Source: an uncultured Bacteroidales bacterium (GTDB lineage: Bacteria > Bacteroidota > Bacteroidia > Bacteroidales > Muribaculaceae). Taken from it: a stretch of DNA of 48,949 nt. The stretch spans positions 1 to 48,949 of the forward strand of contig CAMWNG010000009.1 of assembly GCA_947175575.1 (NCBI GenBank), given 5' to 3'. The notes beneath the pieces are model-generated. The model saw only the letters and a list, made by a program, of their open reading frames with translations. It ran no database searches and was not told where the DNA came from. A program made the translations under genes and the position numbers. Positions 4,600-20,633 of the stretch are shown one piece after another (positions within the stretch are counted from its first letter, which is position 1; each line of letters opens with the position of its first letter).

Positions 4600-5262
4600 T
4601 TAGTTGTTGACGTAGGGTAGGACGGCGTCTCTCCATATCAGATAGGCTTCGCCTACCAGATGGAGTCCGTCGTTGGTGTATTCCTTTCGCAGGTTACCAT
4701 CCTCATCTGTCATGAGGCTGTGGAGTTCTATCCATGTAGCGCCGAGTTCTTCAATCTGAGGACGCACAAGCGCGTTGATGTCACGGATGGTCTGCTCTTT
4801 GTCTATCATCAGTTTGTAGCGGCCGAATGAATTGTTGATCGGCAGCATTGACTGGAAGTAGAGTTCGGTCTGCGGAGAGGCTTCCCGGATGCGCTTTACG
4901 AGAGCGACGGTGGCTGTCGCGATCGAATCGGCCGTAAGGTCATGGCTCACGTCGTTTGCACCGATCATGAGGAAAATTTTGGCGGGATGTCCGTCAAGGA
5001 TGGGTTGCAGGCGGTTCTGCACGCCCTCAATGACATCTCCCACGATTCCGCGGTTGATGGCGTTCGGGTTGTTGAGGAGTTCGTGCCATTCGCATCCATG
5101 TGTCAGACTGTTGCCGAGAAAGACGATCTTGGTTGAGTCGACCGGCAGTAGTTCGAAGAGAGATGCGCGCTGGCCATATAGTTCATTTCCGGCCTGTGCG
5201 CTCAGCGCCATCACAACCGCGGCTATCACGGTTATGACCGATGTGTAACACTTGCGGAACAT
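4600..5262 (-). CDS. Secreted GDSL/SGNH-family esterase
   Basis: A 220-residue SGNH hydrolase with a signal peptide (hydrophobic residues 7-22, AQA-like cleavage near 24). The four SGNH blocks are visible: LGNSLTHG with nucleophile Ser52, Gly72 in NRGIVGD, Asn103 in GAND, and Asp198/His201 in DGLHL. Asn replaces the Asp of the classical GDSL motif, which is common in this subgroup. Its start lies 2 nt after the murQ stop, at the downstream end of the MurNAc cluster. This makes a role in removing O-acetyl or other esters from peptidoglycan sugars a reasonable hypothesis. Family members also deacetylate hemicellulose, so the substrate is inferred only from context. Confidence 0.88.
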   Translation of the reverse strand: MFRKCYTSVITVIAAVVMALSAQAGNELYGQRASLFELLPVDSTKIVFLGNSLTHGCEWHELLNNPNAINRGIVGDVIEGVQNRLQPILDGHPAKIFLMIGANDVSHDLTADSIATATVALVKRIREASPQTELYFQSMLPINNSFGRYKLMIDKEQTIRDINALVRPQIEELGATWIELHSLMTDEDGNLRKEYTNDGLHLVGEAYLIWRDAVLPYVNN

Positions 5263-5264
5263 AA

Positions 5265-6089
5265 TCAGGCCTGCTGGGTTTCGCGATATGCGTCAACGGC
5301 GTTTTTCACCGAGCCGTGGAGGAGCAGCAGACGCTTGGCTTCTTCGTAGGGAAGGCCGAGTTCGTCCACCACCATACGGGTGCCGCGATCAACGAGTTTT
5401 GCGTTCGTAAGCTGCATGTTCACCATCTTGTTACCCTTGACGCGTCCCATCTGTATCATTACGGAGGTGGTGATCATGTTGCAGATCATTTTCTGGCCTG
5501 TGCCGGATTTCATGCGCGATGAACCTGTAACGTATTCGGGACCTACGACCATCTCGATGGCGATGTCGGCTGCTTCGCTTACCGGGGCATCGGGGTTGGA
5601 AGTGATGGCTGCGGTGAGAATGCCGTGTTCACGGCAGTCCTTGAGTGCTCCGATGACATAGGGCGTGGTGCCGGAAGCTGCGATGCCGATTACGGTGTCC
5701 TTCTCGTTGATACCGAACGGCTGAAGGTCTTTCCATCCTTGATGGGTATCATCCTCGGCGTTCTCAACTGCGTTGCGCAGTGCGTGGTCTCCGCCGGCGA
5801 TAAGGCCGATTACCCATGACGGATCCATTCCGAATGTCGGGGGGATCTCCGATGCGTCAAGCACTCCGAGACGTCCGGATGTACCTGCGCCCATATAGAA
5901 GATGCGGCCTCCGCGTTTCATGCGGGCGACTATTTCGGTGACGAGTTTTTCGATCTGGGGGATGGCTTTTTCGACAGCGAAGGCAACTTTCTTGTCTTCG
6001 TTGTTGATGTCGCGCAGGATTTCGCCTACGCTTTTTTTCTCGAGATTATCGTAGAGAGAGGGCTTTTCGCTGATTTTTTCGAATGCCAT
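5265..6089 (-). CDS. murQ: N-acetylmuramic acid 6-phosphate etherase
   Basis: A 274-residue cytoplasmic SIS-domain enzyme that cleaves the lactyl ether of MurNAc-6-phosphate to give GlcNAc-6-phosphate and D-lactate. The phosphosugar-binding loop GAGTSGRLGVLDASEIPPTFG begins near residue 67. Glu81 and Glu112 lie 31 residues apart, the same separation as catalytic Glu83 and Glu114 in E. coli MurQ. The protein is about 20 residues shorter than the E. coli enzyme, mostly at the ends. It lies 51 nt after murK and 2 nt before the SGNH esterase, in a run of same-strand salvage genes. Family and reaction are secure. Confidence 0.96.
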   Translation of the reverse strand: MAFEKISEKPSLYDNLEKKSVGEILRDINNEDKKVAFAVEKAIPQIEKLVTEIVARMKRGGRIFYMGAGTSGRLGVLDASEIPPTFGMDPSWVIGLIAGGDHALRNAVENAEDDTHQGWKDLQPFGINEKDTVIGIAASGTTPYVIGALKDCREHGILTAAITSNPDAPVSEAADIAIEMVVGPEYVTGSSRMKSGTGQKMICNMITTSVMIQMGRVKGNKMVNMQLTNAKLVDRGTRMVVDELGLPYEEAKRLLLLHGSVKNAVDAYRETQQA

Positions 6090-6140
6090 TGTTGTGATAT
6101 ATGATTGAGTTGTGATTTATAGATATAGTTTTTGCTTTTT

Positions 6141-6983
6141 TCAGGCAGTGTGGAACTTGATGAGGCCCTCCATGGGCGATTTCACGATTTTGCCTACACG
6201 ACAGCCGCATGCCTCGGCAGCTTCCGAGAGCACTTCCTTATAATAGAAGGCGATGGAACCGATGAAGTTCACGCTGAGAGTCTTATAAGAAGGATACTGC
6301 GCGATGTTGCGGATGAAGAATGCTTTGAATGCGTTGAGCACAAGAGCGTGGATTTCAGAACGGTCGATATTCTGGATAAGGAACGGAGTTACGGAAGCCA
6401 GGAAGCGGTTGCCCTGCGGTTCCTTGTACACCCGACGGATTATGGTGAGACGGTCGAGTTCATACTGGTCGAGGAACTTGGCGCAGAGGTCTTCCGGAAG
6501 TTGGTTTTTGAGGATATCGCCGAGCAGAATTTTGCCCAGAACGGCGCCGGAACCTTCATCGCCCAGAATGTAACCGAGCGGAGACACGTTCTCCACAATG
6601 TCGGTGCCGTCATAATAGCATGAGTTTGAGCCTGTGCCCATGATGCAGGCGATACCGGCCTCGCGTCCGCAAAGCGCACGGGCTGCCGCAAGCAGGTCTG
6701 TATGCACTTCCACTGTTCCTGCGTTAGGGAAATTGGCACGGATGGCCCGTTCCACATTGCCGCATACTTCGGGTGAGATACATCCGGCACCGTAGAAATA
6801 AACTTCGGATACATCATATCCTGCAAGTTCGCCCACAAGCTCGTCGGCGATACGCTGGCGCATCTCTTCTTCAGTGAGCATTACGGCATTCATGCCCATT
6901 GTAAATACTTGTTTTTCGACTTTACCGTCGTCAAGCAGGCACCAGTCGATCTTGGTGCTGCCGCAGTCAGCTACGAGAATCAT
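6141..6983 (-). CDS. murK: MurNAc/GlcNAc-type sugar kinase (BadF/BadG family), MurK
   Basis: A 280-residue ASKHA-fold kinase. The phosphate-1 motif VADCGSTKIDWCL starts at residue 4, the phosphate-2 motif is GTGSNSCYYDG near 117, and the adenosine-side segment LGDEGSGAVLGK follows near 140. It resembles eukaryotic GlcNAc kinase and the MurNAc kinase MurK of Tannerella forsythia. In that system MurNAc enters unphosphorylated and is phosphorylated in the cytoplasm before MurQ. Its ATG overlaps the stop of the upstream membrane-protein gene by 4 nt, indicating translational coupling, and murQ follows 51 nt later. The kinase fold is secure. Preference for MurNAc over GlcNAc is inferred from the neighbours. 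Confidence 0.9.
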   Translation of the reverse strand: MILVADCGSTKIDWCLLDDGKVEKQVFTMGMNAVMLTEEEMRQRIADELVGELAGYDVSEVYFYGAGCISPEVCGNVERAIRANFPNAGTVEVHTDLLAAARALCGREAGIACIMGTGSNSCYYDGTDIVENVSPLGYILGDEGSGAVLGKILLGDILKNQLPEDLCAKFLDQYELDRLTIIRRVYKEPQGNRFLASVTPFLIQNIDRSEIHALVLNAFKAFFIRNIAQYPSYKTLSVNFIGSIAFYYKEVLSEAAEACGCRVGKIVKSPMEGLIKFHTA

Positions 6984-8134
6984 ATCTTTATATATATTTT
7001 TTTATTATACAGAATAAGGCCGATGAGCCAGTTCACCATAACGAAAAGTATGGCGAATATTAGCGACGCGAGGGTAGCGTCGTCGCCGCACAGAGGCATG
7101 AGGCAATCGGTGTAAATAACGCCCTTGAGGGAAGTGCCGCCCACCTTGACAGCACCGATTATGATGCTGAGGACGGCTCCGAGGCAGTAGAGGAAGAGCG
7201 GATTGATGCCGAATACTTCGAAGAATCGGCACCAGCGTTTGTGGCCGCGGATGTCGATCACCCAGATCAAAAAACCGAGGAAGGATGAAGCCAGACCGCA
7301 GGTAGTGAGAACGAATGTGGGCGACCAGATTTTCTTATTGATGGGCAGTCCGTAGTCGAGCAGGAAACCGCTGAAAGTGAGAATCACGCCGACGATGAAC
7401 AGATAGTTGATGCGCAGATTATTGTCGCGAGTTGACATGATCAGACCTCCGCAGATGAAGCCGATGAGCATGTGTGCGATGGAGGGTAGGGTGCTCAGGA
7501 GGCCTTCAGGATCGAATTTCAGTGTAACACCGTTGACGGTGTCCGCATACATGTGGTCGGCGCCGAGTATCTTGTGGTCGACTACCGAGATTACGTTGGT
7601 GTCAGCGAATTCGAAACCATTGCCCGTCAGCAGGATTATGGCGTACAGCACGAGGAGCCCACCCGTAAACCACCACAGTCCGCGGCCCTTGATGAGCAGC
7701 GCGCATATTGAACCTACGCCGTAGCAGATGGCCAGACGAGGCATCACACCCAGAATACGGATAGTGGAGAAATCGGTCAAGGCATCCCAGACGGAGCCGT
7801 TGATGGCTCCTCTGAGAATTCTGCCGAACCATACGATCGCGAAACCTATGAAGAAAATCACAACGGTACGGCGCAGGATTTTCCAGCCGGTGCGTGCCGT
7901 GAGTTCAAAATTATAACCTCGCAGGGAGAAGTATGTAGAGATACCCATTATGAACATGAAAAACGGAAAGACGAGGTCGGTAGGTGTCAGACCGTTCCAT
8001 GAAGCGTGAGCCAGAGGGGGATAGATGTGTCCCCATGAGCCGGGATTATTTACCAGAATCATGCCGGCGATGGTTATACCGCGCAGGATGTCCAGCGCCA
8101 GCAGCCTCTGTTTCTTTGGTTTTATTTGGGTCAT
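6980..8134 (-). CDS. HGSNAT-like (DUF5009-type) multi-span membrane protein in the MurT position
   Basis: A 384-residue inner-membrane protein with about ten hydrophobic segments. The N-terminal region has LALDILRGITIAGMILVNN followed by HASWNGLTPTDLVFPFF and FIMG. This is the signature of the heparan-alpha-glucosaminide N-acetyltransferase family, and the His of HASWNGLT corresponds to the catalytic His of human HGSNAT. Transcription order with murK and murQ matches the murTKQ set described in T. forsythia, where the first gene is required for MurNAc uptake. It may therefore be the MurNAc transporter, a transmembrane transacetylase acting on amino sugars, or both. It overlaps murK by 4 nt and starts 21 nt after the D-lactate dehydrogenase stop. 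The family is clear; the function is inference. Confidence 0.85.
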   Translation of the reverse strand: MTQIKPKKQRLLALDILRGITIAGMILVNNPGSWGHIYPPLAHASWNGLTPTDLVFPFFMFIMGISTYFSLRGYNFELTARTGWKILRRTVVIFFIGFAIVWFGRILRGAINGSVWDALTDFSTIRILGVMPRLAICYGVGSICALLIKGRGLWWFTGGLLVLYAIILLTGNGFEFADTNVISVVDHKILGADHMYADTVNGVTLKFDPEGLLSTLPSIAHMLIGFICGGLIMSTRDNNLRINYLFIVGVILTFSGFLLDYGLPINKKIWSPTFVLTTCGLASSFLGFLIWVIDIRGHKRWCRFFEVFGINPLFLYCLGAVLSIIIGAVKVGGTSLKGVIYTDCLMPLCGDDATLASLIFAILFVMVNWLIGLILYNKKIYIKI

Positions 8135-8155
8135 GGTTTTATAGATAGTTATATA

Positions 8156-10975
8156 TTATTTTTGTGTTTTGGGGGTTGTGACCGCGTCAACCAGATACGC
8201 GATGGACTTGTAAGACACACCGCTGTTTGCTGTCAGTCCGATCTCGCAAGTGCGCGAGTTGGAATAGCCTGATTTGACCCCTGCCTGTTCCAGAGCCGGG
8301 CGCAGTTTCCGGAGAGCCCAGCGGTTGAGTTCAGGGATGAAGAATCCTTTATCGCCGGCAAATCCGCAGCAGCCCACTTCGGCGGGGACGGTCACGTTAG
8401 TGCTGCATCGTCCTGCAAGACCGATGATGACCGGTGCGAGACCCATGCGACGCGTAGAGCATGTGACGTGTACCGCAACCGGTTCGTCGGTGGGATGGAA
8501 GTCAAGGTGTGGCACCAGGAATTCCTCGATGAATTCGGCCGGTTCGTAAAGACGCATATCCTTGATTCCGTTGCGCATGCGGTGGAGGCAGGGACTTTGG
8601 TCACACATCACGGGATATTTGCCGTTTTGAGAAGCTTTCCATAGAGCGGTATGGAGCTTTTCAAGCATTTCATCACCTTTTTCGGGCATACCTTTGCTTT
8701 CCCAAATCATGCCGCAGCACAGCGATTTCATGTCCTCCGGGAATATGACTTTGTAACCGGCCTTACGGCAGAGATTAAACATCGTGTCCACAAGCGGAGC
8801 GATCTTCTTGCCCTTTTCTTCCGTAACGCCCATCGTACGGTTGATGCACGAAGGGAAGTACACTACCACGCGCTCCGATTCAGGCATTTTCTCTGCCTCC
8901 CGGACGCTCGACTTGGGATAGAAGCCTTTCGGGAGTGCAGCCGACCATAGCGGTAATCCGATACGGTGCATACCTTTGCCTATTGAGTTCACGGCTTTGT
9001 CGCCTACAACTTTTCGTGCCAGATTGGCCGTATCGAGCATCGGGCGCATTACGGAGAGAATGGATCCGAGATGATCGGCGGCGAAGGCTCCGACCTTATA
9101 ACCGAAAGATCCTTCGGGAATTCCGGCTTCGCGAACCACATGCACCATTTCGCCGGTGTTTATTTTCATCGGGCATGAGGTGCTGCACAGGCCGTCGCCG
9201 GCACATGTAGCGTTGCCGAGGAATCCGAAACTCTTCTTCAGAGCATCAGCAGCCTTGAGTGATTCCGGCGAACCTACTGCTTCAAGGCGAGCGATCTCAC
9301 GCAGGATTACGATGCGCTGACGAGCCGACAGAGTGAAGCCGCATGAAACACAGTTCACCTCGCAGAATCCGCACTCGATACACTTGTCCACGATTTCGTG
9401 TACAGGAGTGAGAGGCTTCATGTTCCGCAGATAACATTCCGGATCATCGTTGAACATCGAACCTCGATTCAGAAGATTATGTGGATCGAATGCTTTCTTG
9501 ACGCGGAGCATCATCTCATAAGCTTTGTCGCCCCATTCCTTGCGCACGAACGGTGCCATATTACGACCTACGCCGTGTTCGGCCTTGAGCGAGCCGTCGT
9601 AACGGTCAACAACAAGTTCTACTATGCCTTGCATGAGCCGTTTGTATCTTTCCACTTCTTCCTCGCTGTCGAAATTCTGCGAGATGATGAAATGATAGTT
9701 ACCGGCAAGGGCATGCCCGTAGATGCAGGCGTCGTGGTAGCCACATTCTTGCAACAAGGCTGCCAGCTCAGTGGTTGCTTTAGGCAGATCGTCGATCTGG
9801 AAAGCGACGTCCTCGATCAGCACAGTGGTGCCTTTGGGGCGTGTGCCGCCCACAGTGGGGAAGATACCTGAGCGGAGGCTCCACCAGGCGGCGGTCTCTT
9901 CGGGGTCGGTGCTGAAATGGGCGGGTATATGCAGTCTGAAGGTGTCGATGACCTTCATGATGGCGTCAATGTTAGCCTGCAGTTCGGTTTCGGTGTCTGC
10001 CTTGGTGTCGAGCAGCAGGGCGGTGAGGCCCGATCCGTTGGGGTCATGAACGGCCTCGAGCGATTTAGAATCAAGCATCTCGCATGAGAATACGGGAGCC
10101 GATTTTTCAAGAGCCACAACGCAGCGGCAGGCCTCCTCCATATAATCGAAGTAGAGTAGGGCAGACGCAGCGAAGGGATACAGATGTTCGGTTTTCATCG
10201 TCACTTCGGCGAGGAAAGCCAATGTGCCCTCCGAACCCACCATCAGGTGAGCGATGATTTCGAACGGATCCGTGTATGTTATGAACGGCAACAGGTTCAG
10301 GCCCATTACGTTCTTGATGGCATATTTGTGTGCAATGCGTTTGGACAGATCTTCGTCAGCACGGATTTCATCGCGGATAGTTTCGATTTCTTTAAGCAAT
10401 TCGGGATGAGATGCGCTGAACGCTTTGCGTGATTCGGGGTCAGCGGTGTCAAGGACGGTGCCGTCGGCCAGAATGATTTTTGCCGAAATGAGCTCGCGGT
10501 CGCTGTTGTATTTTACGCCACAATTCATTCCGGAAGCGTTATTGGCTACAATACCGCCCACCATAGCTGATTTCTTGGAGGCGGGGTCGGGAGAGAACAT
10601 GCGTCCGAGCGGCGCGAGAATCTGGTTCACGCGATCGCCGATGATACCGGGCTGCATGGTTATTGTCATAGCGTCCGGCGAAATATTGTATTTTTCCCAG
10701 GATTTTCCGGCCACGACGAGAACAGAATCGCTGACAGCCTGACCTGAGAGGGATGTGCCTGCGGCACGGAAGGTCACGGGAACACTGTGTTCTGTGGCGA
10801 GGTGCATCAGTCGGCTCACCTCGTCGGGCGTGTCGACCGTAACCACCATTTTAGGAATATAGCGGTAGAAGCCGGCGTCGGTACCCCATGCGAGGAGTCT
10901 GAGCGGATCTGTGAAGATGCGCGACGCGGGAATGAATTCCCTAAGTGAACTTGAAAATTTGTCAAACGATTCCAT
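8156..10975 (-). CDS. FAD- and Fe-S-containing D-lactate dehydrogenase, Dld-II type
   Basis: A 939-residue fusion in the order FAD_binding_4 (about 30-240), FAD-oxidase C-terminal domain (about 260-520), two Fe-S cluster motifs (CIECGFCEVNC and CAGDGLCSTSCP, about 530-630), and two cysteine-rich CCG domains (SLCCGM and GCCGFAGDKGFF, about 650-920). Shewanella Dld-II, a respiratory D-lactate dehydrogenase, has the same architecture and length. Glycolate-type 2-hydroxyacids are the main alternative substrates. I start it at ATG 10975; the upstream TTG at 11014 would add 13 non-conserved residues. It sits between namZ and the murT-like gene, so the obvious substrate is the D-lactate released by MurQ. 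That link is inferred from position. Confidence 0.9.
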   Translation of the reverse strand: MESFDKFSSSLREFIPASRIFTDPLRLLAWGTDAGFYRYIPKMVVTVDTPDEVSRLMHLATEHSVPVTFRAAGTSLSGQAVSDSVLVVAGKSWEKYNISPDAMTITMQPGIIGDRVNQILAPLGRMFSPDPASKKSAMVGGIVANNASGMNCGVKYNSDRELISAKIILADGTVLDTADPESRKAFSASHPELLKEIETIRDEIRADEDLSKRIAHKYAIKNVMGLNLLPFITYTDPFEIIAHLMVGSEGTLAFLAEVTMKTEHLYPFAASALLYFDYMEEACRCVVALEKSAPVFSCEMLDSKSLEAVHDPNGSGLTALLLDTKADTETELQANIDAIMKVIDTFRLHIPAHFSTDPEETAAWWSLRSGIFPTVGGTRPKGTTVLIEDVAFQIDDLPKATTELAALLQECGYHDACIYGHALAGNYHFIISQNFDSEEEVERYKRLMQGIVELVVDRYDGSLKAEHGVGRNMAPFVRKEWGDKAYEMMLRVKKAFDPHNLLNRGSMFNDDPECYLRNMKPLTPVHEIVDKCIECGFCEVNCVSCGFTLSARQRIVILREIARLEAVGSPESLKAADALKKSFGFLGNATCAGDGLCSTSCPMKINTGEMVHVVREAGIPEGSFGYKVGAFAADHLGSILSVMRPMLDTANLARKVVGDKAVNSIGKGMHRIGLPLWSAALPKGFYPKSSVREAEKMPESERVVVYFPSCINRTMGVTEEKGKKIAPLVDTMFNLCRKAGYKVIFPEDMKSLCCGMIWESKGMPEKGDEMLEKLHTALWKASQNGKYPVMCDQSPCLHRMRNGIKDMRLYEPAEFIEEFLVPHLDFHPTDEPVAVHVTCSTRRMGLAPVIIGLAGRCSTNVTVPAEVGCCGFAGDKGFFIPELNRWALRKLRPALEQAGVKSGYSNSRTCEIGLTANSGVSYKSIAYLVDAVTTPKTQK

Positions 10976-11014
10976 GATTGGTTGATTGAGGAGTTGAAGA
11001 GAGAGTTTTGGCAA

Positions 11015-11052
11015 GATTCCAGGGAGCCGGATTAGATACGGCTCCCGGAATC
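11015..11052. terminator. Strong hairpin between namZ and the D-lactate dehydrogenase gene
   Basis: GATTCCAGGGAGCCG (11015-11029) pairs with CGGCTCCCGGAATC (11039-11052), 14 bp with one unpaired base. It lies just after the namZ stop on the minus strand. No T tract follows, so it could be a partial terminator, a processing site or a transcript-stabilising hairpin inside the operon. Confidence 0.5.
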
Positions 11053-11056
11053 AGTG

Positions 11057-12292
11057 TTATTTGTAGAGATAATATTTTGAAGATGCAGTCTTGAAAGCTT
11101 CGTTATCCTTGTTCCAATAGTCGATGATATCGGCTACCTTGTGGTTCTTGGAGAAGCGTTTGCGGATTTCTTTGGAACCGCATACCTTATCGAACATGTT
11201 GAAGCGCTTGGGGTCTGCGTTGCCTTCGAGGAAAGTGGCTTTTTCGGGGTGCATGTCAGCGAGTTCCTGCATTACATAGAACTGTGTCAGCGACAGCGGA
11301 GCAACTTCTTTGTCGGTTACGTAGACTTCGATGCCCTGGAGATTTTCACCCTTTCCAACGCTGTAGAAAGGCTTGATATGGATGGGGCGGAACATCATGC
11401 CGGGGAGATTGAGCGCGTTCATGCGACGAGAGAGTTCCTCAGCATCGACCCATGAAGCTGTGAACAGCTTGAAGGGCTCGGTATAGCCAACACCTATGTT
11501 CATATATCCAAGTTCGCCGAGAATGCCACTGACGGGGTACATTACGGCAATCTCCGGATTGGGTATGTGAGGCGAGGGAAGTACCCAAGGCATGCCGGTG
11601 TCGCGGAAATCCATATCGCGGGTCCAGCCCTGCATCGGTATGACGGTAAGGTCGACCTTGAGGCTGTCGCCTACCAGTCCTTCTTCGTTCAGATAGACTG
11701 CGAGTTCGCCGGGAGTGAGGCCGTAGAGATAGGGGATGGGGAACTGGCTCACAAATGATACACAATCATCTTCGGTGAGGTTGCCTTCCACTTTGTTACC
11801 GCTTACGGGGTTGGGGCGGTCGAGCACCATGAATTCCTTGCCGAGTTCGGCGCAGGCCTCCATGCCGAGGCCCATCGTGCTGATAAAAGTGAATGAGCGG
11901 CAGCCGATGTCCTGTATATCATAGATGAGGACGTCCACGTCTTTGAGCATTTCGGGAGTGGGCTTGCGTGATGAGCCGTAGATGGAGTAGACGGTAACGC
12001 CGGTGGCAGGGTCGACGAAGTTGTCAACGTGGTCGCCTGCGTGTACATCCCCGCGCACACCATGTTCGGGAGCATAGAGTCCTACAAGTTCCACATCGGA
12101 AGCTTCATGAAGGATGTCGATGGTCGATTTTAGCTTGTTGTCTACACCTGTGGGATTGGTGATCAGGCCGACACGTTTTCCTTTCAGAGGCGCGAAGTCC
12201 ATATCACGGAGCACCTCGATGCCGGGTTTCACCTGAGCCGAGAGGCTCATGGCGGTCATAATTCCGAGAGCAACTGCGAATATCTTTTTCAT
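11057..12292 (-). CDS. namZ: NamZ-type exo-beta-N-acetylmuramidase (DUF1343, GH171)
   Basis: A 411-residue secreted protein with a signal peptide (residues 1-19, cleavage after SLSA). It belongs to DUF1343, now family GH171, whose members remove MurNAc from the non-reducing end of peptidoglycan fragments. Motifs are VGLITNPTGVD near residue 41, LYAPEHGVRGD with the conserved Glu76, IYDIQDIGCRSFTFISTMG near 124, and VLDRPNPV near 153. It starts 6 nt after the stop of the AmpG-like permease gene. Released MurNAc would feed the MurT-like/MurK/MurQ route encoded just downstream. Family assignment is firm. Preferred substrate (disaccharide versus muropeptide) cannot be read from the sequence. Confidence 0.93.
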   Translation of the reverse strand: MKKIFAVALGIMTAMSLSAQVKPGIEVLRDMDFAPLKGKRVGLITNPTGVDNKLKSTIDILHEASDVELVGLYAPEHGVRGDVHAGDHVDNFVDPATGVTVYSIYGSSRKPTPEMLKDVDVLIYDIQDIGCRSFTFISTMGLGMEACAELGKEFMVLDRPNPVSGNKVEGNLTEDDCVSFVSQFPIPYLYGLTPGELAVYLNEEGLVGDSLKVDLTVIPMQGWTRDMDFRDTGMPWVLPSPHIPNPEIAVMYPVSGILGELGYMNIGVGYTEPFKLFTASWVDAEELSRRMNALNLPGMMFRPIHIKPFYSVGKGENLQGIEVYVTDKEVAPLSLTQFYVMQELADMHPEKATFLEGNADPKRFNMFDKVCGSKEIRKRFSKNHKVADIIDYWNKDNEAFKTASSKYYLYK

Positions 12293-12298
12293 AAGTTA

Positions 12299-13684
12299 TT
12301 ATACTTCTGTGTCTTCAGCAATGTTTTCTTCGATTACTTTATTGACCTTGCGGCCGTAGTTGGGGTTGATGTGCGGGTAGACGAGTGCGGTGACGGCCCA
12401 TGTTGCAAAAGTGCAGCAAAGAACGTACCAGAAGAAACCGTTGTAACCGAGCTGTTCCTGTACCCAACCGGCAATCATGCCCGGGAGCATCATGCCAAGT
12501 GCCATGAATGCTGTACAAATGGCATAATGTGAGGTCTTGTAGGGTCCGTCAGCAAAATACATCATGAACAGCATGAAAGCTGTGAAACCGAAGCCGTAGC
12601 CAAATTGGTCAACAAAAACACAGGCATATATTGAAATGCCGCCCCAGAGGGTATTCACATCGGGTTCAAAATAGCTCAAGGCGATGTAAACAATAGAGTT
12701 GAGAGAGATGCACAGGGCCATGGGCCAAATCCACTTTTTCAGACCGCCGGCAGATGCGCATATACCGCCGATAATGCCGCCTACTGTCAGTCCGATAACA
12801 CCGATGGTGCCGTAAGCCAGGCCAACCTGCGCGGTTGTCAGACCCAGACCTCCGACACTTTGCGGGTCAACGAGGAAGGGCTGTATGAGCTTGATGAGCT
12901 GAGCCTCGGGCAGGCGGTAAAGCAACATGAACAGTATGGCGATGAAAACATATTTCTTTTTAAAGAATGTTGCAAAAGAGTCGCCGAACGAACGAACAAC
13001 AGCGCCTACACCGCCTTTACCATCGGCATCTACAGTCGGTTTATCGCTTACAGGATATGGAAGGATAAACATGTGGTAGACAGACACTACGCCGAAGAAC
13101 ACGGCCATGCAGGCAAATGTCGTGATCCAGGCTTTCGGAATGTTTGCCATGCTGACTTCGAGATAGCCGGCGAGTGCTACCAGACCACCTTGACCAAGGA
13201 TAGAGGCGCAACGGTAGAATGTCGAGCGGATGCCAACAAACAAACTCTGCTCATTTGTATTAAGAGCCAGCATATAGAAGCCGTCGGAGGCTATGTCGTG
13301 AGTGGCTGAGGCAAATGCCATTACCCAGAAGATGGCCAGACACAGTGTGAAAAGGTTTACCGAGACGTTACCGGCGGCGAGTTCGGCTGCACCGGGAGTG
13401 GGAATGGTGAAAGCTACGCCGGCAAGCGCGAGAGTGACGATTATCTGCATAGCTACTGTCCACCATCGTTTAGTCTTGATTACATCGACAATAGGGCTCC
13501 AGAAAGGCTTGATGACCCATGGCAGATAGAGCCAACCTGTGTAGAGAGCTATGTCGGCATTCGACATACCCAGACGCTTGAACATCATCACAGAGATCAT
13601 ATTCACAGCGAAGTATGGTATTCCTTGTGCGAAGTAGAGAGTCGGTATCCAAGCCCAGGGATTTCTTTTTGTAGGATGTTTCAT
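12299..13684 (-). CDS. ampG: AmpG-like MFS muropeptide permease
   Basis: A 461-residue major facilitator with 12 or more hydrophobic segments. The N-terminal YFAQGIPYFAVN, SNADIALYTGWLYLPWVIKPFWSP and ASATHDIASDGFYM segments match the AmpG/Cmx-like MFS group. AmpG proteins import anhydro-muropeptides or GlcNAc-anhydroMurNAc from the periplasm. It follows the SpoIID/LytB gene by 32 nt and precedes namZ by 6 nt, so it is part of the salvage operon. It is shorter than E. coli AmpG, with only a small C-terminal extension. Membership in the AmpG-like group is well supported. The actual cargo may be muropeptides, disaccharides or free MurNAc. Confidence 0.87.
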   Translation of the reverse strand: MKHPTKRNPWAWIPTLYFAQGIPYFAVNMISVMMFKRLGMSNADIALYTGWLYLPWVIKPFWSPIVDVIKTKRWWTVAMQIIVTLALAGVAFTIPTPGAAELAAGNVSVNLFTLCLAIFWVMAFASATHDIASDGFYMLALNTNEQSLFVGIRSTFYRCASILGQGGLVALAGYLEVSMANIPKAWITTFACMAVFFGVVSVYHMFILPYPVSDKPTVDADGKGGVGAVVRSFGDSFATFFKKKYVFIAILFMLLYRLPEAQLIKLIQPFLVDPQSVGGLGLTTAQVGLAYGTIGVIGLTVGGIIGGICASAGGLKKWIWPMALCISLNSIVYIALSYFEPDVNTLWGGISIYACVFVDQFGYGFGFTAFMLFMMYFADGPYKTSHYAICTAFMALGMMLPGMIAGWVQEQLGYNGFFWYVLCCTFATWAVTALVYPHINPNYGRKVNKVIEENIAEDTEV

Positions 13685-13716
13685 TGATTAAGAAAGAATG
13701 TGATAGTTTATGATTT

Positions 13717-15006
13717 TCAGTAGATTTTGGATAATTCAGCTCCGGGGTAGTAGTGTGCGAGGATCTGCGCGTAGTCGTAACCTTTCTCGCCCATTACAGC
13801 TGCGCCGATCTGGCAGAGTCCGGCTCCGTGTCCCCAGCCTGCGCCGTGCAGACGGAAACCGTCCGCTGTCTTTTCGACTGTGAAAGCCGAGCTATACAGA
13901 TGGCTGGGCGAAAGAGTGCGACGGATTTCGAGTTCTTTGCCGATGATGCGGGTCAGTTTGGAACCGACGATCTTGAGCCGCCAAAGGCGTCCGGATGTGC
14001 CGCGATCCATAGGTATGAGTTCCTTGATTGTGCCGTAGTCGAGACCGCTACGTTCGCGTACGAGTTTTGATAGTTCCTCGGTAGTGTATTCCACAGTCCA
14101 GCGATAGAAATCGGTGGTTTCCTGATCATAGTTGTTAAGAACCTGCGCCAGAATTTTAGCATCTGATGTATTGCAGAATGCGTCGGGACGGCTGTTGATC
14201 CATGCTTCGGCATTGGCTTCGATGCGCAAGTCTTTGAAATCCATCGGTTCCGGGGAATCGCGACGCGCCACGAGGTAGCTCAGAGGACGGTTGTCCCAGC
14301 AATATTGGAATTCCTCAAACACACCGCCGCAGCATTTTGAGAAGCGGGCGTCGCAAAGTTCCTTGTTTTCATCAAGAAGAACTTGTCCGGCTGTCTCACG
14401 GATCGCTTCAGCGACTTTTGGCGTTGACTGGCGTGTCACTCCCTGATAGCGCTGGCAGTGGTCATCGGCGCATACGTCGAAAAGTGTATGATCCTCGCGG
14501 TCGTACCATTTGATCAGTTCCTCCGGAGTGTCGACCATTTCTGATACGGGTTGAGAGCCCGTATGTTTGATTTGTGCAAGGAGCCAGCTGCGCGAAATCA
14601 CGGCATGGGCTTTCAGAAGTTCCAAAGATGCGTGTGCGCTCATCTCGGATGAGATGACGCTGAGCAGATAGTCCTCCACCGGCAGTGTATTTATCACAGT
14701 GAGGCCGTCAGGAGTGGATATTACGCGACAGGCTCCCGAAAAGCGCTGGTTTTCGCGACGTTCCCAGTGGAAATTCACGCCGATCACCACGTCGAAGATT
14801 TCAAATGTAGCTTCGGCGTCGGCGGGGCGGAGAGTCACTTCATCGTGGAGCTCGCCTTGCCAGGCGATACGTCCGTCGGGAGCCTGCGAGAAAGTCTGAG
14901 GACCGCGTACGGGAGTATTGTCAGGCTGGATGTATGTGCCGTGGAAGGTGATTTCGAGGCGATCGGCAGTGAGGATGCCTACGTTTACGTCTGGATGTCC
15001 GTTCAT
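13717..15006 (-). CDS. SpoIID/LytB-domain protein without a visible signal peptide
   Basis: A 429-residue protein whose C-terminal two thirds is a SpoIID/LytB domain. The segment VEDYLLSVISSEM contains Glu121, equivalent to the catalytic Glu of SpoIID, a lytic transglycosylase acting on denuded glycan strands. Also present are CADDHCQRYQGV, a possible metal site, FSKCCGGVFEE, and the typical C-terminal GAGWGHGAGLCQIGA and ILAHYYPG. The first 60 residues form a beta-rich domain and show no signal peptide or membrane segment, unlike most SpoIID proteins. It overlaps the DUF4922 gene by 4 nt. A role on imported glycan fragments in the cytoplasm, or export by another route, are both possible. Confidence 0.9.
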   Translation of the reverse strand: MNGHPDVNVGILTADRLEITFHGTYIQPDNTPVRGPQTFSQAPDGRIAWQGELHDEVTLRPADAEATFEIFDVVIGVNFHWERRENQRFSGACRVISTPDGLTVINTLPVEDYLLSVISSEMSAHASLELLKAHAVISRSWLLAQIKHTGSQPVSEMVDTPEELIKWYDREDHTLFDVCADDHCQRYQGVTRQSTPKVAEAIRETAGQVLLDENKELCDARFSKCCGGVFEEFQYCWDNRPLSYLVARRDSPEPMDFKDLRIEANAEAWINSRPDAFCNTSDAKILAQVLNNYDQETTDFYRWTVEYTTEELSKLVRERSGLDYGTIKELIPMDRGTSGRLWRLKIVGSKLTRIIGKELEIRRTLSPSHLYSSAFTVEKTADGFRLHGAGWGHGAGLCQIGAAVMGEKGYDYAQILAHYYPGAELSKIY

Positions 15007-15941
15007 TTTACGTTTCGGGCTATTTCGTTGATTTCTTCAGCCGACAGGCAGAGTTCATCAAGAATTTCAGTGATTTTTGCTGCATCAAGTGCGTTGAAGT
15101 CTTTTTCGAGGGGAGTTATGAATACTCCGCCCATGTCGACCGAGGCAGGGCTGAGAAGCATGGTGCCTTCGCCTTCGGTGCCGTAGCAGGAAGGACGATG
15201 GCGCTTGCGGGGAATAACTACCAGACGCACACCCGCGGGGGTGGGATAGCAGAGCAGATTCATCATAGGCTCTTTTTCACCTTCGGGCACGGGAATCGCA
15301 TCGTAAAGACGTTTGAAAAGACGTTGACCGGCTTCGGCATCATCTGCCGGTGCATCAATTACGAAAACTTTCAGAGGAAGTGTATCCACAAGAGCGAGAA
15401 CTGCATCGCCGTCGGTGGCAATGGTTTTGAGTTCTGCGTTTTCAAGAGCGTCGGCAAGTGTCAGAAAGTCGCTGTTACCGGCCTGAAAGTGCATGTGGTC
15501 GGGTGCAGAAGCGCCACAACGCGGGCCGTTATAGAAAACTGTGTAATCCTCGAGTTCGGCGGCCAGACGCATCATGTCTGCGATGCGGCCTTCGATGAGC
15601 TGGTCGGTATGGGTTGTGTCAGGAATTGTAAGATGACGCGGGAAGATGGGGAAGGGGTTGATGAGCACTGTGTAACGGTCGGCCCAGTCGATTCCTTCCT
15701 GAACTTCGGGACGGTTGGCCGCGCAGAGGAAACATTTGCGCTCCTTGAGCGATTTTGCATCAACTTTGGCCGATGATGATACGATTCGGGCGGGATTGAA
15801 CTGAACCTTGACGGTCCATCCGGGCAGTTCCACTTCCTTGACTTTAACGCCTTTGAGAGCCTCGAAATTTCCGGCGGCCATAGGCCATACTGCCAGCTGA
15901 GAGGCTATGAAATCAGATATTTGTGCGGAGGACAGAGCCAT
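15003..15941 (-). CDS. DUF4922 protein with HIT/GalT-like nucleotidyltransferase motifs
   Basis: A 312-residue cytoplasmic protein of the HIT/GalT superfamily, DUF4922 type. Visible elements are C70-FL-C73, a possible zinc site; INPFPIFPRHLTIP near residue 94; and YNGPRCGASAPDHMHFQAG, containing H149-x-H151-x-Q153, the active-site triad form used by GalT and GDP-hexose or Ap4A phosphorylases. A second half with LLCYP and VVIPRKRHRP completes a two-domain GalT-like body. It is the first gene of the salvage run after the terminator at 16048-16078 and its stop overlaps the SpoIID gene start by 4 nt. A nucleotidyl-transfer or phosphorolysis reaction on a sugar nucleotide is likely, substrate unknown. 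Confidence 0.85.
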   Translation of the reverse strand: MALSSAQISDFIASQLAVWPMAAGNFEALKGVKVKEVELPGWTVKVQFNPARIVSSSAKVDAKSLKERKCFLCAANRPEVQEGIDWADRYTVLINPFPIFPRHLTIPDTTHTDQLIEGRIADMMRLAAELEDYTVFYNGPRCGASAPDHMHFQAGNSDFLTLADALENAELKTIATDGDAVLALVDTLPLKVFVIDAPADDAEAGQRLFKRLYDAIPVPEGEKEPMMNLLCYPTPAGVRLVVIPRKRHRPSCYGTEGEGTMLLSPASVDMGGVFITPLEKDFNALDAAKITEILDELCLSAEEINEIARNVK

Positions 15942-16047: not shown

Positions 16048-16078
16048 CTCAGTCGCCCGTCCGTATCGGGCGACTGAG
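16048..16078 (-). terminator. Terminator of the amidase-glycosyltransferase unit
   Basis: CTCAGTCGCCCG (16048-16059) and CGGGCGACTGAG (16067-16078) form a perfect 12-bp stem with a 7-nt loop. On the minus strand it lies 28 nt past the glycosyltransferase stop and is followed by an A/T-rich tract. It separates this unit from the DUF4922-led run. Confidence 0.75.
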
Positions 16079-16106: not shown

Positions 16107-17570
16107 TTATTTAGCCTTGTTCATGGCTACACGGGCCTCAAGTTCCCATGTGCGGATACGGTCTTTGTAGAGATTGTTGTTGTTTGTCTTTACAACGTCG
16201 AGTGCGTGATCGGAGTTGTCCTCCCAGCGGCGGCAGTTGTACACCACATCGTAAACACGACCGATCTGATTGCGGCGCGAGAAAGCGAGTCCGAGCGCGT
16301 AGTCTTCACCGTATGAAGTGTTGGGAACGTGAATTTCGCGGAGCATGGGGGTATAGAACGCACGGGGTGCGCCGAGACCGTTGATGCGAAGTGCATTGTT
16401 GCGGCCGTTTTCGGGTGTCCATTCCTTGTGGTCGATTACGCCCGGCGGAATCATGTTCATGTCGATGTCTGTGAGCATGTAAGTGCCCACCACCATGCCA
16501 CAGTTCTGGTCATAGAATGCTTTCACCATCTTGGCAAGGGTGTTTTCATCGGAGTAAACGTCATCGGAATCGAGCTGTACGGCGAATTTACCGCATTTGG
16601 GGTTCTCGACGCCCATGTTCCAGCATCCGCCGATGCCGAGATCATCGCGTTCGGGAATTACGTGAACCACACGGGGATCGGATGTGAATTCTTCGATGGC
16701 TTCAGATGTACCGTCGGTTGAGTGGTTATCGACGATGATGAGGTTGAAGGGGAAGTCGGTTTTCTGGCTGAGTACGCTGCGGATAGCGTCACGGATGGTG
16801 CGAACGCGGTTGCGTACGGGGATGATGACTGATGCTTCGTATTCGAAGTCGCCTTTGTCGAAGTTGATGGTGTCGAATTTGGGTTCGAGGTAGCCACCGA
16901 TAGCTTTGAGGTGGTCGGTGCATGCTTCTTCCATCTCAATCTGAACGCCGCGGTTCTTGGGGTCGACGTAAGAGAAGTGGCTCTCGCCGTCTTCGGTCTT
17001 GGGAGCAGCGATGTCTGTGTACAGGTATTCGTTGATGTGCACGATGGGAGCAATGCGGCTGATGCGGAGTCGGAGATCATAGAGACCGGCAGCCTTGAAG
17101 TCGGCGGTGATGCCTTCAGCTGCTTTCTTGAAATCGGCGGTATTGAAGAAGAGAACTGAGCCGAAGTTAAAGTCATCGCGGAGCGAACCGAACTGATAAT
17201 CGATTACGGGTGCGTTGGATTTCTTGCCGTCAACTACGAGATATGAATCGGCATACATCATGCCGGCTTTCGAGTCGGTGGCGAGACGAACGAAACGCTC
17301 GAGGGCGAAGTAGCCCGGAACGAGAGTATCGTTCTTGGTATAGAGGAGCATGAAGTCGCTGTCGGCAGCGGCGGCGATTGCCTTCATGGTTTTGGACGAG
17401 GTAAGGGTGTCGATGTGGAGGACTTCTGTGCCTTCGATGGCCTCGACATTTTCTTCCGAAGCAAGGAGGAAGATTTTGGTGACCATCGGACATTCACGCA
17501 GTCCGGCGACGGTTGCTTTCACGCATTCGGCATTGCCGTAGGGTACAAAGCAGTTAATAGTCGTTTTCAT
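16107..17570 (-). CDS. Tandem GT2-type glycosyltransferase
   Basis: A 487-residue soluble protein with two GT-A-like halves. The second (residues about 245-440) is a clear GT2 domain: EASVIIPVRNRVRTIRDAI, LIIVDNHSTDGT, and the metal-binding VQLDSDDVYSDE (D334/D336/D337). The first (1-240) has a degenerate version with MLLYTKNDTLVPGY in the place of the DxD region and may be inactive or bind acceptor. No membrane segment is seen. It lies 30 nt after the amidase stop and shares its promoter. The sugar donor and acceptor are not evident; proximity to cell-wall genes suggests an envelope glycan. Confidence 0.85.
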   Translation of the reverse strand: MKTTINCFVPYGNAECVKATVAGLRECPMVTKIFLLASEENVEAIEGTEVLHIDTLTSSKTMKAIAAAADSDFMLLYTKNDTLVPGYFALERFVRLATDSKAGMMYADSYLVVDGKKSNAPVIDYQFGSLRDDFNFGSVLFFNTADFKKAAEGITADFKAAGLYDLRLRISRIAPIVHINEYLYTDIAAPKTEDGESHFSYVDPKNRGVQIEMEEACTDHLKAIGGYLEPKFDTINFDKGDFEYEASVIIPVRNRVRTIRDAIRSVLSQKTDFPFNLIIVDNHSTDGTSEAIEEFTSDPRVVHVIPERDDLGIGGCWNMGVENPKCGKFAVQLDSDDVYSDENTLAKMVKAFYDQNCGMVVGTYMLTDIDMNMIPPGVIDHKEWTPENGRNNALRINGLGAPRAFYTPMLREIHVPNTSYGEDYALGLAFSRRNQIGRVYDVVYNCRRWEDNSDHALDVVKTNNNNLYKDRIRTWELEARVAMNKAK

Positions 17571-20601: not shown

Positions 20602-20633
20602 CAAAGGTAAACACAATTTATGAAGTAACCAAA
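20602..20633 (-). promoter_or_regulatory. Promoter of the amidase-glycosyltransferase unit
   Basis: On the minus strand TTTG (20630-20633), a 20-nt spacer and TACCTTTG (20602-20609) match the Bacteroidota primary-sigma consensus. The predicted transcript starts about 30 nt before the ATG at 20567. Confidence 0.75.

Follow-up and report, generated by a model that had tools for sequence, protein, structure and literature searches.

A Muribaculaceae version of the Tannerella forsythia peptidoglycan-salvage operon, with genes for a probable D-lactate dehydrogenase and a probable deacylating esterase

The window examined here is a 48,949-nucleotide (nt) stretch from the genome of an uncultured Bacteroidales bacterium of the family Muribaculaceae (contig CAMWNG010000009.1). 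An earlier note on its sequence described a run of nine genes on one strand as a cluster for the salvage of N-acetylmuramic acid (MurNAc) and muropeptides, wider than the murTKQ set of Tannerella forsythia. Which parts of this locus belong to a known system, and what might the others do? We found that the cluster is the Muribaculaceae version of the known T. forsythia peptidoglycan-salvage operon, a kind of operon that is itself not new, and that its only additions are genes for a probable D-lactate dehydrogenase (D-LDH) and an SGNH esterase. We put at roughly 0.8 the probability that the locus is an eleven-gene salvage unit of the T. forsythia type in which the D-LDH oxidizes the D-lactate produced by MurQ. 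The known part of the operon is ordinary; what is added to it is a probable lactate-oxidizing gene and a probable deacylating gene.

The cluster and its T. forsythia counterpart

The features of the cluster are as follows, with positions numbered along the whole window.

20602..20633, minus strand: predicted Bacteroidales promoter, TTTG-N20-TACCTTTG (pattern match)
17601..20567, minus strand: golvesin/Fn3 secreted protein with a divergent Amidase_3-like stretch (Golvesin_C, 98 bits)
16107..17570, minus strand: GT2 glycosyltransferase (PF00535, 82 bits)
16048..16078, minus strand: perfect 12-bp GC-rich stem with a 7-nt loop, in the gap between GT2 and DUF4922 (RNA folding)
15003..15941, minus strand: DUF4922 protein, Ap4A-phosphorylase-like, with HxHxQ (PF16269, 220 bits)
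13717..15006, minus strand: SpoIID/LytB-like protein without a signal peptide (TIGR02669, 171 bits; Pfam SpoIID, 88 bits)
12299..13684, minus strand: AmpG-type muropeptide permease (TIGR00901, 159 bits; cut-off 350)
11057..12292, minus strand: NamZ exo-beta-N-acetylmuramidase, predicted secreted (NamZ_N 279 bits, NamZ_C 130 bits)
8156..10975, minus strand: FAD and Fe-S D-2-hydroxyacid (probably D-lactate) dehydrogenase (FAD-oxidase_C 162 bits, FAD_binding_4 110 bits)
6980..8134, minus strand: MurT orthologue, an HGSNAT/NagX-type transmembrane protein (NagX_SO_3504, 104 bits; cut-off 480)
6141..6983, minus strand: MurK MurNAc kinase (PDB 8oqw/8ow9, E ~1e-95)
5265..6089, minus strand: MurQ MurNAc-6-phosphate etherase (TIGR00274, 305.4 bits; cut-off 302)
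4600..5262, minus strand: SGNH/GDSL esterase, predicted secreted, the last gene (PF13472, 68 bits)

The nine open reading frames (ORFs) that the earlier note placed at 15941..4600 are all in the ORF list of the window, all on the minus strand, and they are as tightly spaced as it had said: there are 4-nt overlaps at two junctions (DUF4922/SpoIID and MurT/MurK) and the remaining gaps are 2-81 nt, taking the start of the D-LDH gene as ATG 10975 instead of TTG 11014. The 3' part of its boundaries stands. The upstream limit does not, because two further genes precede the run on the same strand, GT2 (16107-17570) and the golvesin/amidase-like exoprotein (17601-20567). Its assignments to DUF4922, SpoIID, NamZ, D-LDH, MurQ and SGNH/GDSL are supported by Pfam and NCBIfam. 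The models for AmpG, MurK and MurT scored below their cut-offs, and we identified these three proteins by comparison with T. forsythia and the PDB.

In the oral bacterium T. forsythia, the nine genes Tanf_08345-08385 are described as one transcript under the control of GppX (PMC5388701), and the activities of AmpG, of MurT plus MurK in import, of MurK and of MurQ have been tested (PMC5388701, PMC5790795, PMC7670621). Scanning a genome collection with MurK, we found this operon on contig 82 of T. forsythia ATCC 43037 (locus L026; L and G numbers are our handles for loci and genomes). From 567 confirmed loci only the best 80 were kept, and the scan favours sequences like T. forsythia MurK. The gene order in L026 is amidase-like, GT2, DUF4922, SpoIID, AmpG, NamZ, MurT, MurK, MurQ, and all nine Tanf_08345-08385 genes have counterparts in the window in the same order, which bears out both the salvage function and the murTKQ order that had been claimed. 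The claim of a set wider than that of T. forsythia survives for D-LDH and SGNH only, because there are nine genes in the T. forsythia operon as it stands: seven of those in the earlier note match it in order, and its first two genes had been missed.

Chance does not explain this arrangement. A synteny search of murQ neighbours across Bacteroidales, which the earlier note had proposed as a check, showed NamZ-D-LDH-MurT-MurK-MurQ as an uninterrupted run in 39 loci, 38 of them distinct (the window included).

The window's MurK shares 55% identity with its T. forsythia counterpart of solved structure (E = 1.6e-95), and falls below the cut-offs of both Pfam and NCBIfam. In the alignment it keeps T94, D95, N119, S133-P134-L135 and D141, residues with a reported part in binding or accommodating MurNAc; T94 and S133-P134-L135 give space for the lactyl group, and D95 is catalytic (PMC10465942). 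With these specificity residues present, the protein is, as judged by alignment, the MurNAc kinase MurK. MurQ exceeds the equivalog cut-off of TIGR00274 (305.4 versus 302 bits), and both NamZ domains (279 and 130 bits) are above their Pfam cut-offs. The N-terminus of NamZ is hydrophobic, as expected of an export signal; signal peptides were judged throughout by N-terminal hydropathy only. AmpG does not reach the NCBIfam cut-off for its family (159 of 350 bits for TIGR00901); by score and position it corresponds to Tanf_08365, the AmpG tested in T. forsythia. Elsewhere in the collection, MurK and MurQ are fused in a single frame of 553-554 amino acids in two genomes of one genus (L124 and L148), and a second MurK-like kinase, perhaps the counterpart of T. 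forsythia K1058, adjoins the salvage cluster in L120, L126, L127 and L128.

The first gene of the unit encodes a protein with a hydrophobic N-terminus and a Golvesin_C domain (98 bits), labelled 'xanthan lyase' in T. forsythia. Amidase_3 was seen in 10 of 10 aligned members, the window's included, at a maximum E of 1 (best E = 2e-4); the match in the window protein is below the Pfam cut-off (13 of 27 bits, E = 0.099). H458 and E539 are invariant and E175 nearly so in the alignment, and we take these to be metal or catalytic residues. phmmer and profile searches of the PDB with this protein gave golvesin/Fn3 matches, and an amidase match of only 34 residues (E = 0.24). The protein is predicted to strip stem peptides from peptidoglycan.

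We scanned the window for the pattern TTTGN{18,22}TANNTTTG, presumably the Bacteroidales -33/-7 promoter consensus, and found 8 matches compared to 0.36 expected from shuffles. The match at 20602-20633 is the sole one on the minus strand between 26990 and 4600, and its predicted -7 box lies 34 nt from the first ATG of the golvesin/amidase-like gene. A scan of the window for sigma-70 promoters and terminators gave no more matches than in shuffles. Gaps across the cluster are mostly small in relatives too, and the eleven genes, from about 20595 to 4600, are probably read as one transcript; on these sequence features we consider this likely but not certain. Given this spacing, the 165-nt gap between GT2 and DUF4922 was unexpected: in relatives its median is 6 nt (61 pairs, 50 of them at 60 nt or less). 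Folded as a stretch of 169 nt, the gap gives z = -3.9, and it contains the perfect 12-bp hairpin, which has no U-run after it and whose 23-nt core occurs once in the genome, allowing up to 2 mismatches. The hairpin is possibly a site of processing or attenuation.

Next to GT2, some loci carry other genes. A metallophosphatase with a PQQ-type beta-propeller lies directly before GT2 in three of them (L110:73-1926, L117:14468-16342 and L062:2609-4459). In a Paludibacter metagenome-assembled genome (L094:7837-9825), glucosamine-6-phosphate isomerase and PIG-L deacetylase domains share one frame, which adjoins GT2 near DUF4922, SpoIID, MurK and MurQ.

The added dehydrogenase and esterase

MurQ releases D-lactate (PMC5790795), and oxidation of this D-lactate is therefore the simplest role for the dehydrogenase. 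The protein has the complete domain set FAD_binding_4, FAD-oxidase_C, 4Fe-4S and CCG, with CCG at 21.4 bits (cut-off 20.6) and the 4Fe-4S domain, Fer4_8, marginally below threshold (26.2 bits, cut-off 27). Its relatives in the PDB include glycolate oxidase, LctD and mitochondrial D-LDH, and a search of the window's own genome gave one match at E ≤ 1e-20. We conclude that it probably oxidizes the D-lactate released by MurQ.

We compared the distribution of the two genes among 59 genomes of the same family, 31 of which have MurQ. D-LDH matches at E ≤ 1e-20 occur in 35, two of which (G036 and G050) carry only a homolog with 35-38% identity. An orthologue is present in all 31 genomes with MurQ; of the 28 that lack MurQ, two carry one (G029, assembled in 220 contigs, and G048, in 340). 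In a second set, consisting of 10-20 kb stretches around 20 of 53 DUF4922 matches, the 8 loci with MurQ all have D-LDH and MurT, and the other 12 have no MurQ, D-LDH or MurT in the stretch seen. Among those 12, the L145 contig is cut short, and its genome (G001) has both MurQ and D-LDH on other contigs.

Across the order, we counted the 87 MurQ loci, of 98, whose upstream flank is 6 kb or longer, dropping the 11 shorter ones; L082 and L126 are the same contig, so 86 are distinct. Full-length MurQ was present in 24 genomes including the window's own, and the loci of the other 23 were taken, leaving out G109, G137 and G175, where it is partial, split or weak. In the 87 loci, MurT is nearby in 58, D-LDH in 42, SGNH in 41 and AmpG in 67, and D-LDH lies beside MurT-MurK-MurQ in records from Bacteroides, Mediterranea, Barnesiella and Muribaculaceae. 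The two added genes tend to occur together: 38 of the 42 MurQ loci with D-LDH have SGNH, compared to 3 of the 45 without it, and only 4 loci have D-LDH alone (counts not corrected for kinship).

Several observations weigh against an eleven-gene unit that disposes of MurQ-derived D-lactate. The correspondence in 31 of 31 genomes cannot be taken as independent evidence, because a GT2 tree of 21 loci needs only 2 changes in the combined MurQ and D-LDH state, one of them due to the cut contig L145, so that it amounts to about one event. Among the 58 MurQ loci with MurT, 17 have no D-LDH within the range examined. Of 12 genomes whose cluster is without D-LDH, 7 (T. forsythia included) have no copy at E ≤ 1e-20 and the other 5 have one elsewhere, 45-56% identical; as a control, the same search recovered the gene in 4 of 4 genomes with a cluster copy. 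D-LDH is therefore not needed wherever MurQ is. The GlcD and YdiJ models also match the protein below cut-off, and it is from gene context that we infer its substrate. Finally, the long gap after GT2, with its strong hairpin, could divide the transcription unit.

Some of these points could also mean that the dehydrogenase is a bystander, or acts on another 2-hydroxyacid such as glycolate or D-2-hydroxyglutarate, in which case its place in the operon would say nothing about MurNAc. The matches to glycolate oxidase and YdiJ family models would fit this, as would the several MurQ genomes that have no such gene, and distant relatives of it adjoin DUF4922-GT2 in two loci from other classes (L183 and L185) with no MurQ within the 20 kb seen. 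We nevertheless think it improbable, because the gene is kept beside MurT-MurK-MurQ in all four of the groups named above and its orthologue is missing from 26 of the 28 MurQ-less genomes of the same family (two of the 26 have the 35-38% homolog). The matches listed in our literature search, which mostly did not extend to subscription journals, include no report of a D-LDH in a MurQ operon of Bacteroidales.

Based on orthology, gene order, active-site conservation, linkage and fusions, a pathway can be proposed for the unit with D-lactate oxidation. Outside the inner membrane, the amidase-like protein would strip stem peptides, NamZ would cleave MurNAc off the ends of glycans, and the SGNH esterase would take off acyl groups, perhaps a 6-O-acetyl group that would block phosphorylation. 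AmpG would bring in disaccharides or muropeptides, and MurT would bring in, or prepare, free MurNAc. MurK would then phosphorylate MurNAc at C6, MurQ would convert MurNAc-6-phosphate to N-acetylglucosamine (GlcNAc)-6-phosphate and D-lactate, and the FAD/Fe-S dehydrogenase would oxidize the D-lactate to pyruvate and pass the electrons on. GT2, DUF4922 and the signal-less SpoIID protein would work in the cytoplasm on material imported by AmpG.

Every one of these steps would also fit recycling of the cell's own wall instead of use of foreign peptidoglycan, and in E. coli the permease AmpG serves recycling (PMC7670621). Recycling is a real possibility, and the less probable of the two: a secreted NamZ, amidase-like protein and esterase, together with a D-lactate step, suggest catabolism, and T. 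forsythia reportedly cannot use foreign peptidoglycan unless it has AmpG (PMC7670621). Both Muribaculaceae and Bacteroides are common in the gut, and the operon is likely a route by which they use the cell walls of other bacteria; from the D-lactate half of MurNAc, D-LDH would yield pyruvate and usable electrons.

MurT: importer or acetyltransferase

The earlier note called the gene at 6980..8134 HGSNAT-like. The kinship is real, and what the gene encodes is the orthologue of MurT, with 54% identity to the T. forsythia protein; as a label for something separate from MurT the name is rejected, because the gene corresponds to the T. forsythia MurT of L026. The window protein has no Pfam match at E 0.001. 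It matches the NagX model over its full length (104 of 480 bits) and human HGSNAT in two long stretches (E = 1.7e-18). All 25 MurT orthologues aligned, that of T. forsythia included, have D15xxR18, N29 and H43, and H43 aligns with H297 of human HGSNAT. We take the conserved Asn29 to be, by its role, an acetyltransferase residue. MurT thus has both the DxxR motif in transmembrane segment 1 and the catalytic His described for TmAT/HGSNAT acetyltransferases (PMC12423673, PMC9007349), the human H297 being named as the acetyl carrier (PMC9007349).

MurT may therefore be a transmembrane acetyltransferase like HGSNAT and NagX instead of an importer, taking acetyl groups from acetyl-CoA in the cytosol and transferring them to an amino sugar in the periplasm. 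The acceptors could be glucosamine or muramic acid from N-deacetylated wall, and this would widen the range of substrates for the kinase and etherase. Besides the kinship and the invariant residues, this is favoured by the proposal that NagX is a transacetylase, with the T. forsythia MurT named as its distant relative (PMC9007349), and by a 2025 study according to which the function of none of the DUF5009 proteins has been confirmed by experiment (PMC12423673). The published description of T. forsythia MurT as a transporter of the sodium symporter superfamily (SSF; PMC5790795) does not fit the sequence: we rejected SSF membership for the window MurT, which was the protein scanned against Pfam (T. 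forsythia MurT was aligned only). Conversely, E. coli lacking murP is reported to grow on MurNAc only with MurT and MurK together (PMC5790795), and gene context leans to import, as another transporter is near MurQ more often where MurT is absent. Of the 29 MurQ loci that lack MurT, 12 carry an SSF or CitMHS transporter on one strand or the other, at most 12 kb upstream or 6 kb downstream; of the 58 that have MurT, 4 do (Fisher P = 2e-4, not corrected for kinship). In six loci (L065, L070, L077, L087, L103 and L105, three of them outside the 87-locus count owing to short flanks) such a transporter lies directly before MurK. Strict mutual exclusion is weakened by the 4 loci that have both and by the 17 of 29 MurT-less loci that have neither, and the transporter models were built from loci chosen as MurT-less. 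On balance we favour import of MurNAc by MurT as fairly probable, and regard the acetyltransferase as the less likely but still credible choice. That a published MurNAc transporter bears the sequence and conserved residues of an acetyltransferase is a contradiction worth experiments.

In one locus (L056:7123-9963), a sodium:solute symporter is fused to SpoIID in a single open frame directly before MurK and MurQ.

The putative cytoplasmic core, and comparison with known systems

GT2, DUF4922, SpoIID and AmpG form a core that also occurs in genomes without MurQ. In GT2, the motifs DSDD, ED and RRW are invariant in 4 sequences. DUF4922 has both Ap4A phosphorylase domains plus HxHxQ, as in the Ap4A phosphorylase/HIT group, with most of the Pfam matches of the window protein below cut-off: among 37 members, Ap4A_phos_N was found in 36 and ATP_transf in 11 (E ≤ 1), and H149, H151 and Q153 are invariant. 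The solved Apa2 matches with a profile E-value of 4e-8, and the AlphaFold model of DUF4922 has a mean pLDDT of 92.9. We predict that DUF4922 is a nucleotidyl transferase or phosphorylase. Its CFLC motif, which we take to be of GalT type, raised the alternative of a GalT-type enzyme; this was not supported, as Pfam points to Ap4A phosphorylase, and GalT (PF01087) was not found in 13 genomes (G000 and 12 relatives).

In SpoIID, E121 and C179/H183/C184 are invariant in 26 sequences; presumably these are the catalytic Glu and a metal site. By the hydropathy threshold the window protein has no signal-peptide-like N-terminus, and there is no start codon upstream of 15006. Among 48 relatives, 42 are also under the threshold and 6 pass it. 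The extracytoplasmic location of SpoIID lytic transglycosylases is therefore not predicted here.

Nine of the 12 DUF4922 loci without MurQ have GT2, DUF4922, SpoIID and AmpG together (AmpG is absent in L134 and L140, and L145 is cut). Searches of those 9 genomes found no MurQ and no D-LDH, and MurT is absent at the locus, the only place checked for it. Because the core persists without MurQ and D-LDH, it likely does separate work, in a role not previously described. Fusions join DUF4922 to GT2 in 7 loci and to SpoIID in 5, and AnmK is rare, found in 3 of the 59 same-family genomes and not in the window's own (91.8% complete). These fusions, the SpoIID protein without a signal, the core without MurQ and the rarity of AnmK suggest that imported glycan goes through a separate step in the cytoplasm. 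A bolder and rather doubtful extension would combine a nucleotide-dependent GT2/DUF4922/SpoIID module, acting on glycan imported by AmpG, with an acetyltransferase-fold MurT that has been turned to, or mistaken for, sugar import. As an example only, such a module might reopen or re-activate anhydro- or MurNAc-ended sugars in bacteria without AnmK.

The association extends to other Bacteroidota classes. In 20 loci there (from 21 strong DUF4922 matches among 148 genomes), GT2 directly adjoins DUF4922 in 14 and has one gene between them in 3, and the other 3 have no GT2; SpoIID lies nearby in 7 and AmpG in 6. The module of GT2, DUF4922 and a predicted cytoplasmic SpoIID is found across Bacteroidota and, with the MurT contradiction, is the part that deserves experiments. 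The matches listed in the literature search include no report of DUF4922 in peptidoglycan use, those for DUF4922 being two plant papers; subscription literature was mostly outside the search.

Some variants of these neighbourhoods were seen. In two Paludibacteraceae loci (L100:5436-6155 and L102:5222-5950) a lipoate-ligase-type LplA/B gene occupies the DUF4922 slot between GT2 and SpoIID, and in L184 a clear Amidase_3 lies between SpoIID and AmpG. In L175 and L180, from other classes, the DUF4922-GT2 pair is beside a response-regulator SpoIIE phosphatase, with a histidine kinase and a sigma-54 activator also near in L175; similar-sized ORFs recur by DUF4922-GT2 in L178, L179, L182, L192 and L193.

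Compared with known systems, the window is closest to the T. forsythia operon, with which it has nine orthologues in common in the same order on one strand (NamZ is ybbC there). It differs in having D-LDH between NamZ and MurT, SGNH esterase after MurQ, and a gap of 165 nt with the hairpin following GT2. By position, Tanf_08355 is the DUF4922 gene; it carries a glycosyltransferase label in T. forsythia. With the AmpG-NagZ-AnmK-MurQ and MurP recycling system of E. coli, the window shares import by AmpG and the MurQ etherase, whereas E. coli uses the phosphotransferase-system protein MurP where the window has the ATP-dependent kinase MurK. Shewanella NagX and human HGSNAT, of the TmAT superfamily, are sequence relatives of MurT with the same DxxR, Asn and His residues. 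Unlike them, MurT precedes a MurNAc kinase and etherase, and its T. forsythia orthologue is reported to be a MurNAc importer. Finally, DUF4922 resembles Apa2 and enzymes of the plant GGP type in matching both Ap4A phosphorylase domains and in HxHxQ, and a plant GGP-group protein is annotated as DUF4922 (PMC9871823). Unlike those enzymes, it is linked and fused to GT2 and SpoIID.

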